DNA from: Romeriopsis navalis LEGE 11480
GTDB lineage: Bacteria; Cyanobacteriota; Cyanobacteriia; Leptolyngbyales; Leptolyngbyaceae
Assembly: GCF_015207035.1 (NCBI RefSeq)
Contig: NZ_JADEXQ010000032.1
Location: forward strand, 1-57,016
Reading direction: 5' to 3'
Length of the DNA: 57,016 nucleotides
The position numbers were made by a program, and so were the translations under genes. Positions within the stretch are counted from its first letter, which is position 1. The number at the start of each line of letters is the position of its first letter. Below the pieces are notes generated by a model. That model was not told the DNA's origin. It saw only the letters and a list, made by a program, of their open reading frames with translations, and made no database searches. Of this stretch, positions 40,441 through 55,883 are shown in pieces.

Positions 40441-41220
40441 CTAGAGCCGCTGGTACGTTGATGGATCGGCTTTAATTAAAAACAAATCGCCATACTGCGT
40501 CACTTGACCCGTAATCTGGATCGGATCAGCCACTAGGTCAAGCACCTGCTTACTGACCGATTTACCATTGCTATCTGCTAACAGAAAATACAGTGGATCG
40601 CCCTGCTCATTATGGGATAAGAAGACCGCTGGTACGCCGCCGCTAATACAGCGAATTGCGCAAGCCCGGTGAGTTTTTCCCTGACCTGGCTTCATGACGC
40701 CGGGATAACATTTGCCATCCAGAATTTCACCCTTCAGTGAGAATTCACCCAGAGGCACCCCCGGCTCGGGCTGCAACGGTGCCCCGGCAGGCCGCTCAAT
40801 CGGTTTGGCGCCCCCAGTCGCAACGACCGTTAAGTTATTGCGATGTACAGCCGCACCTTTGATCTGCACCCATTTGCCGATTTGGTCTGTCACTTTCGCG
40901 GGAACAGATGATTTGCTAAAGCCGGAAAGCAGATAACGGGAAAACTGCGATCCCGATTCAATCTTGCCTTTACGCGGTACGAGCAAATGGGGCACTGGCT
41001 CGCCTACAAGTAAGCCTTCAAACTGTCCACGACTAAATTTGCCCGGATTAAATTGGTCATGGACTCGCGGTACAAATATGCCAAATAGGACAACCCCAAC
41101 AAACAGCAAGGGAATAAACTTCAAGAGAAAGCGTTTGATCCCTTTCGGCAGACGACTATAACCGCTGAAAAATTCGTCGTCGGATCGCTTCGCCGGTTGC
41201 GAATCAGAATGATTATTCAT
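40441..41220 (-). CDS. Membrane-anchored periplasmic protein with Cys/His motif (redox operon gene 4)
   Basis: This is a protein of about 259 residues. A basic N-terminus leads to one membrane helix (about 30-50, FLLKFIPLLFVGVVLFGIFV). The rest should be periplasmic and mostly beta. The striking feature is GKCYPGVMKPGQGKTHRACA with Cys171, His184 and Cys187, followed by Cys191 in IRCISGG. The spacing suggests a metal- or cofactor-binding site or disulfides. The ATG at 41220 overlaps the stop of the upstream Rieske gene by eight bases, indicating translational coupling. It is the last gene of a four-gene operon, and its function is unknown. Confidence 0.8.
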   Translation of the reverse strand: MNNHSDSQPAKRSDDEFFSGYSRLPKGIKRFLLKFIPLLFVGVVLFGIFVPRVHDQFNPGKFSRGQFEGLLVGEPVPHLLVPRKGKIESGSQFSRYLLSGFSKSSVPAKVTDQIGKWVQIKGAAVHRNNLTVVATGGAKPIERPAGAPLQPEPGVPLGEFSLKGEILDGKCYPGVMKPGQGKTHRACAIRCISGGVPAVFLSHNEQGDPLYFLLADSNGKSVSKQVLDLVADPIQITGQVTQYGDLFLIKADPSTYQRL

Positions 41221-42337
41221 AGGATTGGGCGCCATCGGCATCAGGGTATATCCGGGCCGGTATCGTTTCAGTACCAGGCGGATTGGGAATTGTGCTTACG
41301 AAAATTCGATCGTCTCGGAGTTGGACATTAAAGGTGGGTACCGATTCGATAAACGGTGGCGGGGAAGCACCCGTTTCCGGTAAATACTGATAGCCATGCC
41401 AAGGACAAGTCACACAGCCATCGATCACTTTACCTTCGCCCAACGGACCGTTCTGATGTTGGCAAACATTCGAAATTGCCGCAATTTTGCCGTCGTACTT
41501 AAAGATCGCGACCCGCTCGCCAGCGATCGTCACTATTTTCGCCCTTGTATCAGGAATTTCATTGATACTGCCGATATCAACATAGTGATCAGTCGCGGTT
41601 GCCGGTGGTGCAACGGCTCGATCACGCCGCCGCTCTTGCAATGCGGCCAGTAAGTGGATCACCGTAATCCAGACCAACCCAAGGCCGACCGCAATTGTCA
41701 AAAATGGATGGCGATTGGTCTGAATTGCCCCAAGGGTGACATGTCCGACTAACGCCGCATAGGCGACGTAAACCGACATGTGCAGGGCTTTCCAAATCGG
41801 CGCAGTCAAATTTGCCAACCAAAAATCGTGACTGGTAATTGCCATCAAAAACAAAATCGCCAGACCAATCACGCCTAAGGTTTCAAAGGGAAAACGCACT
41901 AAGGAACCATAATGGGTATTCCCTGCAAACAAACTGACAATCGGCTCGACGTTACCAAAGTCGTGATACCAGTACAGCGCCCCATCTGCCTTATAGGGAA
42001 TATTCGACAACACCGGGATATCCGAGAGATTAAACCCAATGACATGGATTAACCCTAGGAAAAACATCGTCACACCCATATGTCGGCGATTGTAAAGCAA
42101 TGGGAGAAACCGCCGATCGAAGCGACAAAGCGGCCCGATCGACAAAATTACATGGAGCAAAATAAATGCCGCTGAGCCAAACGCCCGAATATCAAGCCCA
42201 CGCATTTCCAAATCTGGACTCACCAGTTTCGCAGAGTACGTAAACAGAAACAGGTAAATGCCAATGGCGGCAAACAACAACAAATCGTAGATGATTTTTG
42301 TGCGATTCCATTGAATCGACTTATAAGCAACACTCAC
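41213..42337 (-). CDS. Ferric-reductase-like membrane domain fused to Rieske [2Fe-2S] domain
   Basis: This is a 374-residue fusion. Residues 1-235 are a membrane domain of about six helices with several helix-placed His residues (for example His62, His98, His186 and His199), suited to b-type haem binding as in ferric reductase/MsrQ-type proteins. Residues 250-350 form a Rieske domain with Cys292-x-His294 (VCQHQNGPLGEG) and Cys311-x2-His314 (CPWHGYQY). The Rieske part follows the last helix. This is a one-polypeptide electron path between a haem pair and an iron-sulfur centre. It lies five bases from the preceding gene and overlaps the next. The partner and direction of electron flow are not known. 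Confidence 0.9.
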   Translation of the reverse strand: MSVAYKSIQWNRTKIIYDLLLFAAIGIYLFLFTYSAKLVSPDLEMRGLDIRAFGSAAFILLHVILSIGPLCRFDRRFLPLLYNRRHMGVTMFFLGLIHVIGFNLSDIPVLSNIPYKADGALYWYHDFGNVEPIVSLFAGNTHYGSLVRFPFETLGVIGLAILFLMAITSHDFWLANLTAPIWKALHMSVYVAYAALVGHVTLGAIQTNRHPFLTIAVGLGLVWITVIHLLAALQERRRDRAVAPPATATDHYVDIGSINEIPDTRAKIVTIAGERVAIFKYDGKIAAISNVCQHQNGPLGEGKVIDGCVTCPWHGYQYLPETGASPPPFIESVPTFNVQLRDDRIFVSTIPNPPGTETIPARIYPDADGAQSYE

Positions 42338-42342
42338 TTTGT

Positions 42343-42873
42343 TTAAGACTCCCGATGCGAAAGGGTCGTCATATCCGCAGCCAAGGGCAGCACTGACAAC
42401 ACAGTATCTTTAGCTTGGCTATAAATCAGCAAATTCCCGGCTTTACCTTGCATGGCCGCCGGTATCGTAAACTCCCGACGCGACTGACCAGCCAATGAGC
42501 CCAGTAACAGGGCATTTGCCGGTAAGGTATCCGGCGCGGCAGACTTGCCAGCCAGCCAGTAAAGTAGGACATCCGGCTGCCGTAGCGGCACCGTTGGCGT
42601 CACGGCCAGAATACTCTTACCTTCTGACACGAGCTGCAATATTTCGCCTTCGATCGGCACCACAGCATTCTGCCAAACCATCGTTTTAATTACCTTGGCA
42701 TTCCGTTGCTGATCAGCCGACGCAAATCCGGCCGCATCAAATAAGCCGTTCGCCTCAGCTCCCGCCGGAGCATAGGTTGGACGGCATAATAATGCCACCA
42801 GAAAGCCCAGGGGGAGCAGTCCGATCAAAGCGACCGATGACCAGAAGTGGGCTTGCCGACGTTCATAAATCAT
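42343..42873 (-). CDS. Membrane-anchored periplasmic protein, possibly DM13-like (redox operon gene 2)
   Basis: This is a 176-residue protein with one N-terminal anchor (about 10-30, FWSSVALIGLLPLGFLVALL). The periplasmic part ends with DVLLYWLAGKSAAPDTLPAN, LLLGSLAGQSRREFTIPAAM and GNLLIYSQAKDTVLSVLPL. That order of strands (LLGSL, then FTIP, then LLIYSQ) resembles the DM13 domain, which elsewhere occurs with haem-binding redox domains. The match is by eye and weak. It is five bases upstream of the Rieske fusion gene. Confidence 0.75.
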   Translation of the reverse strand: MIYERRQAHFWSSVALIGLLPLGFLVALLCRPTYAPAGAEANGLFDAAGFASADQQRNAKVIKTMVWQNAVVPIEGEILQLVSEGKSILAVTPTVPLRQPDVLLYWLAGKSAAPDTLPANALLLGSLAGQSRREFTIPAAMQGKAGNLLIYSQAKDTVLSVLPLAADMTTLSHRES

Positions 42874-42897
42874 CTTCTCTATTCTCCTGACAGCATT

Positions 42898-43170
42898 TTA
42901 TGAAGCATTCTGATGGGCTCGTAAGCGATGAATATTCCGTTCAGTCGGAGTTTGTTGGCCCCGAATTAAACGCCAAACAAATAGGGGCCAAAAGACCGAA
43001 ACACCCGGCAAAATTATTAAGCGAAATCCAATCGCCCAGCCCCTTACCGATGGGTCAACCCGCTGGATGAGAAAAATGACAAACAGGACAGCAAACACTG
43101 CACCGATTGTGAAGTAGATTTGGAGACAGAGAAGGAGTACGGGAATAACCGCAATTGCAACGCTATTCAT
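42898..43170 (-). CDS. Small two-helix membrane protein (redox operon gene 1)
   Basis: This is a 90-residue protein with two hydrophobic helices (about 5-35 and 45-68) and a basic C-terminal tail with RQQ/RNIHRLRAHQN-type composition. It is the first gene of the operon, 24 bases before the next gene. It is probably a small subunit or assembly factor for the Rieske-haem membrane protein. It has no His or Cys ligands of its own in the helices. Confidence 0.7.
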   Translation of the reverse strand: MNSVAIAVIPVLLLCLQIYFTIGAVFAVLFVIFLIQRVDPSVRGWAIGFRLIILPGVSVFWPLFVWRLIRGQQTPTERNIHRLRAHQNAS

Positions 43171-54962: not shown

Positions 54963-55421
54963 CTATCTCACAGTGTCCTTGGGCCGATCGGACTCAGCAA
55001 GACCAGCTGTCCGGCTTTGATACCAGCGATGCGCCAAGGAACCGACGATAAACGCACCCAGAAATAGCACTGGATTCCAAACGCCCAAGACCAATGCGGT
55101 AATTCCTGGCCCCGGACAATATCCCGAAATTCCCCAACCAATCCCAAAAATCACAGCACCGAGGATTAAGGGACGATCGATATCTCGGCGCGTGGGCAAC
55201 CGAAATTCATTAGCAAAGATCGGCTGACTGCGACGCAGCACAAACCGAAAAGCAATCACCGTGACGGAAACGGCCCCACCGAGTACAAACAATAAGGTTG
55301 GGTCCCAAGTGCCCGCAACATCGAGGAAACCGAGTACCCGATCGCGATCGACCATTTGCGATAGGCCCAAGCCAATGCTGAATAAAACACCCGTGAACAA
55401 CGCAACTAAATTCTGGTTCAT
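54963..55421 (-). CDS. YeeE/YedE-type transporter, second half (DUF6691/PmpB-like)
   Basis: This is a 152-residue protein with four membrane helices. It contains GLGLSQMVDRDRVLGFLDVAGTWDPTLLFVLGGA and the Cys-bearing GIGWGISGYCPGPGITAL. In the YeeE/YedE family such paired small proteins correspond to the two halves of a single thiosulfate/sulfur-compound channel. The stop of the upstream gene and this start are 12 bases apart, so they are one operon. The substrate is likely a reduced sulfur species. Confidence 0.88.
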   Translation of the reverse strand: MNQNLVALFTGVLFSIGLGLSQMVDRDRVLGFLDVAGTWDPTLLFVLGGAVSVTVIAFRFVLRRSQPIFANEFRLPTRRDIDRPLILGAVIFGIGWGISGYCPGPGITALVLGVWNPVLFLGAFIVGSLAHRWYQSRTAGLAESDRPKDTVR

Positions 55422-55433
55422 GACTTCCTCGGG

Positions 55434-55883
55434 TTATTTAACGATCGCCAACAGGCCATGTCGCAAGACAAAGACTGTCAATATGGCAGTGGACAAAAAG
55501 GTACAAACGGCAACAAACGATCGTACGGACAAGCGACCTAAACCACAGACACCGTGGCCACTGGTACAGCCATTTCCCATCCGCGTACCAAAGCCAACCA
55601 GCAAACCGCCGATTAACATCGCAACGGGCGCAAAGGTCGAGCGGGGGGTCGGTTGCGTCGCGATGCCAAATTCATATAGCAATCCCCCGAGCAGCATGCC
55701 CGCCAGAAAATACCAGCGCCAGACTTCTGATCGAGCCGCATTGGTGGTGCGATCAATCCTGGCTGCCCCATTCAAAATACCGCTTATCCCCGTAATCCGA
55801 CCATTGAAGGCCAACATCAAGGTGCTACTGAGGCCGATTAAAACACCCCCCAACAAACCCGTTACCCAATTAAACTCGGCCAT
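55434..55883 (-). CDS. YeeE/YedE-type transporter, first half (PmpA-like)
   Basis: This is a 149-residue protein with four membrane helices. The signature GTRMGNGCTSGHGVCGLGRLSVRSF contains two Cys in the pore motif, typical of YeeE/YedE sulfur transporters. The N-terminal GVLIGLSSTLMLAFNGRITGISGIL is also typical. It forms an operon with the adjacent second half. No sulfur-oxidation or rhodanese gene lies next to it in this window. Confidence 0.9.
   Translation of the reverse strand: MAEFNWVTGLLGGVLIGLSSTLMLAFNGRITGISGILNGAARIDRTTNAARSEVWRWYFLAGMLLGGLLYEFGIATQPTPRSTFAPVAMLIGGLLVGFGTRMGNGCTSGHGVCGLGRLSVRSFVAVCTFLSTAILTVFVLRHGLLAIVK

Follow-up and report, generated by a model that had tools for sequence, protein, structure and literature searches.

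According to the accessible part of PMC11031084, membrane proteins with a ferric reductase domain (FRD) carry electrons from the cytosolic side to the outside, and the flavin reductase Fre reduces MsrQ (YedZ) of E. coli. In the accessible part of PMC3591440 the haem histidines His209 and His222 of NOX2 are named, an arginine is given for YedZ and STEAP at the position of the first haem histidine, and the occurrence of FRD and Rieske in one protein, listed in 2013 as domain model M4, is found in a figure legend and one sentence. For the flavinylation-linked transmembrane cytochromes (MsrQ-, PepSY- and DUF4405-like) a haem core in the membrane was described that serves in modular fashion to connect with redox proteins outside (accessible part of PMC11334425). 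Here, four adjacent genes of the cyanobacterium Romeriopsis navalis LEGE 11480 were compared with these systems. The genome of 6.47 Mb has ORFs that look phycobilisome-like, and the closest relatives of the locus are in records with cyanobacterial names. They lie in a stretch of 57,016 nucleotides (nt) of contig NZ_JADEXQ010000032.1, which was analysed as a whole and is called the window. The third gene encodes an FRD protein fused to a Rieske domain. The proposed kind of system, an FRD transmembrane conduit, is known; the Rieske input, the set of partner enzymes and three subunit families without a name set this one apart.

The first-pass annotation of the window had described four tightly packed genes. 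Four close-set open reading frames (ORFs) on the minus strand, encoding proteins 1 to 4, were confirmed at positions 40441-43170, with gaps of 24 nt (genes 1/2) and 5 nt (genes 2/3) and an overlap of 8 nt between genes 3 and 4. An alternative in-frame ATG upstream, at 41241, is a possible start of protein 4 and gives an overlap of 29 nt. In a signal scan of the locus no sigma-70-like promoter was detected (3.5 in shuffled sequences), and the single terminator-like site, within gene 1, compares with 4.8 in shuffles. Since these signals are no better than those of shuffles, a transcription unit is not claimed from them.

A scan for relatives of protein 3 with one genome per species revealed at least 551 stretches encoding them, of which the best 80 loci were analysed (loci and genomes are designated by L and G numbers). 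According to the record titles they represent about ten phylum-level groups: Cyanobacteria, Nitrospirales, KSB1, Verrucomicrobia with Kiritimatiellae and Lentisphaerae, Acidobacteria, Planctomycetota, Bacteroidetes with Rhodothermia, Krumholzibacteriota, Calditrichia and a Chromatiaceae bin. ORFs matching the iterated profiles of proteins 1, 2, 3 and 4 were found in 78, 75, 79 and 74 of the 80 loci, one of the 75 matches to protein 2 (L049) being a misassigned protein 1. All four families are present in 68/80 loci, and in 65 of these 68 the genes have the order 1-2-3-4 on the same strand, with the fused ORFs of L027, L033 and L058 counted as ordered. In two loci of Nitrospirales, L027 and L033, a single ORF covers proteins 3 and 4, and one ORF of L058 is matched by families 1 and 2. 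The three exceptions (L049, L035 and L057) appear to be artefacts of ORF calling. Median gaps between genes 1/2, 2/3 and 3/4 were -4, 6 and -4 nt, and every gap was at most 100 nt in 54/68 loci. The gene set is more than a chance arrangement, because loci of about ten phylum-level groups repeat the same order of the four families. Thus, the gene-neighbourhood comparison proposed with the annotation showed an order shared by many genomes, not one unique to the window.

Carriers of the gene set are rare among cyanobacteria: protein 3 was found in 3/194 genomes of a cyanobacterial draw and protein 4 in 4/194; one of the latter matches is weak and concerns a domain that stands alone and is apparently secreted. 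In a draw of Acidobacteriota 24/247 genomes have protein 3, with partial matches in four of the 24 (G403, G419, G431 and G485).

Some loci show peculiarities of arrangement. A gene for a PD-(D/E)XK nuclease sits between genes 3 and 4 in L037, and about 2.57 kb separate genes 2 and 3 in L009, whereas the distance in the related L010 is about 0.2 kb. Around the operon, Nitrospirales and Moorena loci (L027, L033, L018-L020) have common relatives, namely a cysteine-dioxygenase-like cupin, an ATP-grasp and a GNAT protein, which gives the impression of a larger cluster exchanged across phyla.

The fusion of a ferric-reductase-like haem domain with a Rieske centre, which had been read from the letters of protein 3, was borne out by Pfam, with both domains above their cut-offs: Ferric_reduct (PF01794) at residues 54-196 with 48.4 bits (cut-off 28) and Rieske (PF00355) at residues 253-324 with 56.3 bits (cut-off 20.3). 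Ferric_reduct is the only membrane haem domain above cut-off; no cytochrome b/b6 subunit of the bc1/b6f type was found in the four proteins, and the haem c motif CxxCH is absent from them and from those relatives of proteins 2 and 4 that were retrieved. Hydropathy gives six hydrophobic segments for protein 3, with candidate haem histidines in helices 3 (H86, H98) and 5 (H186, H199). Conservation was counted over all rows found, for protein 2 without L049; alignments A1, A2, A3 and A4 were built on part of the rows (49, 47, 32 and 29, respectively). H86, H98, H170, H186, H199, R84 and R85 are identical in 80/80 rows of protein 3, and so are the Rieske ligands C292xH294...C311xxH314. H186 and H199 are 13 residues apart, as are His209 and His222 of NOX2, and R84 stands 14 residues before H98, at the position of the first haem histidine of NOX2, which we take to be His101. 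H86 could replace this first ligand; therefore, one or two haems are possible in the predicted b-haem domain. From the charge bias both ends of protein 3 and its C-terminal Rieske domain are predicted to be cytosolic. By sequence this Rieske domain is closest to soluble dioxygenase ferredoxins.

Protein 3 shares with MsrQ the b-haem ferric-reductase-like domain with histidines in helices 3 and 5, the presumed outward flow from a cytosolic flavoenzyme, and the arginine (R84) where NOX2 has its first haem histidine. It differs in its score of 32.3 bits against the NCBIfam MsrQ model (cut-off 130) and in the added Rieske domain and three extra subunits. A match to an MsrP-type molybdoprotein was not found among the four proteins, the rest of the genome not being searched for it. 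NADPH oxidases and FRE proteins have the same membrane domain family and likewise a cytosolic redox domain fused to the haem domain; this is an FNR-type flavin domain there, but a Rieske domain here. The model M4 has the same two domain types and is likened to protein 3 by these alone, the fusion being named in the accessible part of PMC3591440 without operon, partners or function. The flavinylation-linked cytochromes resemble the complex in their modular haem membrane core, but a Rieske domain is unmentioned in the main text of that survey (PMC11334425).

Proteins 1, 2 and 4 gave nothing above the Pfam or NCBIfam cut-offs. Protein 1 is a small membrane protein with conserved Y19, D39 and W61 and a basic C-terminal tail. 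Its annotation as a membrane protein stands, while the number of two helices is unsure, as hydropathy gives two or three segments. Protein 4 has a single N-terminal membrane helix followed by two beta domains (mean pLDDT of the model 87.8), which are predicted to lie outside the membrane and are OB-like in weak structure matches (VIA-align, Z 7.2 and below), indicating the type of fold only. Foldseek gave one entry of a single-stranded DNA-binding protein (SSB) with E 2.2e-4 and a TM-score of 0.22-0.27, and comparison of the protein 4 sequence with solved structures gave rows at chance level (best E 0.28) or none. DUF5818 was listed weakly for 3/49 members of the family at E <= 0.1 (best E 0.042), and for relatives of proteins 2 and 4 no Pfam family was found above chance level. 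The second domain carries the Cys171/His184/Cys187/Cys191 motif noted before, with C171, H184 and C187 in 75/75 rows and C191 in 74/75. At L005, in a genome without a match to protein 3, a protein that stands alone and is apparently secreted has a D..C...H..C...C motif resembling that of this second domain.

For protein 2 a single N-terminal membrane helix follows the start MIxxxRxxH, in which R6 and H9 are identical in 75/75 rows. Its model consists of the helix and a beta-sandwich (mean pLDDT 90.6), predicted to be periplasmic or lumenal. Foldseek found no PDB match for the model at E <= 0.001, and VIA-align gave assorted beta-sandwiches with Z 7.5 and below. The sequence had no match among solved structures; the profile gave 22 rows, the best (E 0.017) being a single-helix subunit of photosystem II. 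Sixteen homologues of 51-112 residues, counted as called, so that some could be frameshifted, keep little beyond the helix and the MIxxxRxxH start. Since these parts are retained in the short homologues and R6/H9 are invariant, the helix, with H9 predicted to face the cytosol, rather than the beta-domain would form the conserved core of protein 2. The resemblance to DM13 claimed in the first-pass annotation was not established. A Pfam scan of 47 members at E <= 0.1 listed DM13 (PF10517) for none of them, and hhalign against a reference alignment of 15 genuine DM13 domains gave E 0.042 and probability 1.2 over 68 columns, with E 0.21 and 0.14 for two rough-control pairs. By this weak alignment Cys98 of DM13, invariant in the 15 rows, corresponds to Ser152 in the protein of the window, and the beta-domain is gone in the 16 short homologues. 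The likeness is suggestive at most.

Three types of Rieske fusion, which the first-pass annotation did not include, were identified near the 80 loci, with a thiamine pyrophosphate (TPP) enzyme (7 loci), a glutamate-synthase-type flavin mononucleotide (FMN) domain (Rieske-GltS, 7 loci) and an FMN reductase (Rieske-FMN_red, 4 loci). The last adjoins the operon in L037, L068, L071 and L085, its identity by Pfam referring to the member of L037 only. The solved relatives of Rieske-GltS are glutamate synthases. The TPP part of the Rieske-TPP enzyme is nearest in sequence to pyruvate oxidases, with 410 bits against the pyruvate oxidase model (cut-off 742) and 300 bits against PoxB (cut-off 792), both below cut-off; acetolactate synthase models gave 274 bits at most, also below their cut-offs. 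Its best solved relative is a pyruvate dehydrogenase [cytochrome], 3ey9/3eya, which we take to be E. coli PoxB (236 bits, aligned residues 3-528 of 572). PoxB docks on the membrane by its C-terminal end. Since the alignment stops at residue 528 of 572, this end is lacking in Rieske-TPP. The two enzymes share the TPP enzyme fold, but Rieske-TPP has an N-terminal Rieske domain and no such C-terminal end, and seems to carry the Rieske domain instead of the membrane docking of PoxB. In a tree of 25 chosen fusion domains and 13 other Rieske domains of the window's genome every fusion class coheres, the TPP class only at 72/89.

The occurrence of these enzymes together with the complex was examined in carrier genomes of 50 of the 80 loci, hand-picked for spread after the neighbourhoods were known. 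Full-length Rieske-TPP was present in 24/50; the tally was 29/50 before G197, G198, G203, G204 and G239 were dropped for matches of 30-31% starting after the Rieske stretch, and the 24 include a fragment at a contig end (G195) and a gene in two pieces (G221). For the draws, up to six candidates per genome (cyanobacterial) and up to four (Acidobacteriota) were scored. In the cyanobacterial draw full-length Rieske-TPP was found in 1/194 genomes, that of the window itself, after 51 of a raw tally of 52 had been dropped (matches of 29-35% starting at residue 93 or later). The cyanobacterial carriers among the 50 have the enzyme in 9/15 cases versus 0/191 non-carriers of the draw, two groups that were sampled differently and whose genomes are related by descent. 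In the Acidobacteriota draw (raw tally 16/247; G336 dropped with 36% from residue 116) Rieske-TPP was present in 14/24 carriers versus 1/223 non-carriers, giving a Fisher p of about 1e-15, or about 1e-14 without the chosen centre genome, in a test that ignores relatedness. In five of the 14 co-carriers (G242, G251, G276, G325 and G473) the two genes share a contig and are separated by no more than about 15 kb; the remaining nine have them on separate contigs or hundreds of kb apart. Therefore, linkage alone cannot account for the co-occurrence.

Rieske-GltS was found in 18/53 carriers, 17 of which also have Rieske-TPP; in the cyanobacterial draw the query gave only two partial matches, both without the Rieske stretch. 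The L037-type Rieske-FMN reductase was detected in 3/53 carriers at E 1e-30, L071 and L085 being outside that test. In the window's genome no match to the Rieske-GltS or L037-type queries was obtained at the thresholds used. Its Rieske-TPP gene is given with the other features in Table 1. In L006, the closest relative among the best 80, the trio of ZIP-like, FMN-reductase-like and Rieske-TPP genes stands directly behind the operon, with identities of 60%, 86% and 88%, respectively.

Table 1 Positions of the four genes, of partner genes and of further features mentioned in the text (aa, amino acids)
Feature	Position	Strand	Remarks
Protein 1 gene	window 42898-43170	minus	ORF of 90 aa, open
Protein 2 gene	window 42343-42873	minus	ORF of 176 aa, open
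Protein 3 gene	window 41213-42337	minus	ORF of 374 aa, GTG start
Protein 4 gene	window 40441-41220	minus	ORF of 259 aa, ATG at 41220
Rieske-TPP gene, window's genome	G000:C4:108364-110316		contig other than the window's; behind FMN-reductase-like and ZIP-like genes
ZIP-like, FMN-reductase-like and Rieske-TPP genes in a row	L104:3584-7320 (G000:C4)		putative LysR-type regulator on opposite strand
Two neighbouring small membrane ORFs	window 54963-55883		
Protein cluster near operon (21 loci), examples	L043:7929-8777; L067:7814-9462; L078:10180-11832		
Free-standing protein with D..C...H..C...C motif	L005:1474-1971		
PD-(D/E)XK nuclease gene	L037:7193-8038		
Separation of genes 2 and 3	L009:3432-6000		
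Nitrospirales surroundings of operon	L027:538-7606		

Further genes are common near the operon. A protein cluster of 21 loci, one scanned member of which matches Acetyltransf_5, stands sometimes directly behind gene 4, and PlsC-type acyltransferases (a cluster of 6 loci) and, in 19 loci, VTT/DedA proteins occur as well. Together these neighbours hint at an aminolipid link. The two small membrane ORFs elsewhere in the window look like the halves of a YeeE/YedE sulfur-transport protein.

Taken together, it appears fairly probable that the four genes build one membrane complex which moves electrons from the cytosol to the outer side, similar to MsrQ or NADPH oxidases but fed by a Rieske domain. 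In the course that we infer, covering complex formation, cofactors, topology, direction, donors and acceptor, a cytosolic flavoenzyme would reduce the Rieske [2Fe-2S] cluster at the C-terminus of protein 3. From there electrons would pass to one or two b-haems held by H86/H98 in helix 3 and H186/H199 in helix 5 and, across the cytoplasmic or thylakoid membrane, to the periplasmic or lumenal side, where protein 4 with the Cys-His-Cys-Cys site of its second OB-like domain and protein 2 may receive them or relay them to an acceptor. A structural role, or assistance in holding the inner haem, may fall to protein 1 and to the protein 2 helix with its R6/H9 at the cytosolic face. Likely donors would be the Rieske-fused enzymes: the pyruvate-oxidase-like Rieske-TPP, the glutamate-synthase-type FMN enzyme and the FMN reductase.

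Several observations weigh against this proposal. Rieske-TPP is missing from 26/50 carrier genomes and present in only one of the three protein 3 carriers of the cyanobacterial draw, while G415 of the Acidobacteriota has it without a match to protein 3. Rieske-GltS is missing from 35/53 carriers, with a 65% match to its GltS part in the non-carrier cyanobacterium G175, and 50/53 carriers lack the L037-type Rieske-FMN_red at E 1e-30. As each fusion is missing from many carriers, none of them is the sole donor; about half of the tested carriers are without Rieske-TPP and therefore other donors must exist. In the Rieske tree the classes of protein 3, TPP and FMN join at 91/83, which is weak and includes one unrelated long branch. 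Furthermore, the loci seen show no constant linkage to a periplasmic enzyme, and the Cys-His-Cys-Cys site of protein 4 could be a structural zinc site.

A flow in the reverse direction, with the periplasmic domains oxidising an external substrate and electrons passing inwards to Rieske-linked enzymes such as the GltS type, is rather unlikely. Glutamate synthases consume electrons, and they are the solved relatives of the Rieske-GltS found in 18/53 carriers. However, the commoner partner is pyruvate-oxidase-like and another one an FMN reductase, both more naturally donors, and a periplasmic dehydrogenase constantly linked was not found in the loci seen. The FRD proteins are, moreover, described as outward carriers (accessible part of PMC11031084). 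The ferric reductase fold of protein 3 also fits the reduction of Fe(III) or Cu(II) outside the membrane, with the Cys-His-Cys-Cys site of protein 4 binding the metal. In L006 and L007 the operon is followed by a ZIP-like membrane protein, whose relative with 60% identity is a neighbour of Rieske-TPP in the window's genome; a further cluster, found close to the operon in 9 loci, includes a member matching YHS. The ZIP matches of 19.6 and 23 bits are, however, below the Pfam cut-off of 35.1, Pfam gave nothing for the copy in the window's genome, and the FRD fold also serves acceptors other than metals (accessible part of PMC11031084). A role in metal reduction or handling is considered improbable.

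Very unlikely is a quinone-linked or sensory complex, in which the Rieske domain and residues facing the cytosol would sense quinol or exchange electrons with it and none would cross the membrane. Such a function would suit the invariant polar residues at the predicted cytosolic face (R84, R85, H86, H170 and H186 of protein 3, R6/H9 of protein 2), but H98 and H199, which show the same invariance, are placed more deeply within the predicted helices, a pattern seen in through-membrane FRD proteins, and proteins 2 and 4 have large predicted domains outside. The outward conduit fed by a Rieske domain is preferred to the reverse flow, the metal reductase and the sensory complex. As a tentative and more doubtful extension of it, the complex may offer a cytosolic Rieske socket to several Rieske-equipped flavoenzymes, a 'Rieske plug' bus that would carry their electrons outwards and bypass the quinone pool.

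The first-pass annotation had regarded the locus as a dedicated electron-transfer complex without a known name. The genomic side of this view is supported by the gene order across phyla, the invariant putative ligands and three subunits without a family, whereas electron transfer itself is a prediction. A named complex comprising all four proteins was not found: proteins 1, 2 and 4 have no family, and an account of the four-gene set or its partners was not found in the open-licence literature of PubMed Central, preprints not being covered. If the proposed function applies, the complex would be a new bacterial route for sending electrons across a membrane, encoded by a conserved gene set that spans about ten phylum-level groups. 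The co-occurring Rieske-fused enzymes, including the pyruvate-oxidase-like one, make the electron source directly testable. Should the common socket for Rieske-equipped enzymes be true as well, electrons from carbon, nitrogen and NAD(P)H would all enter one outward haem conduit.

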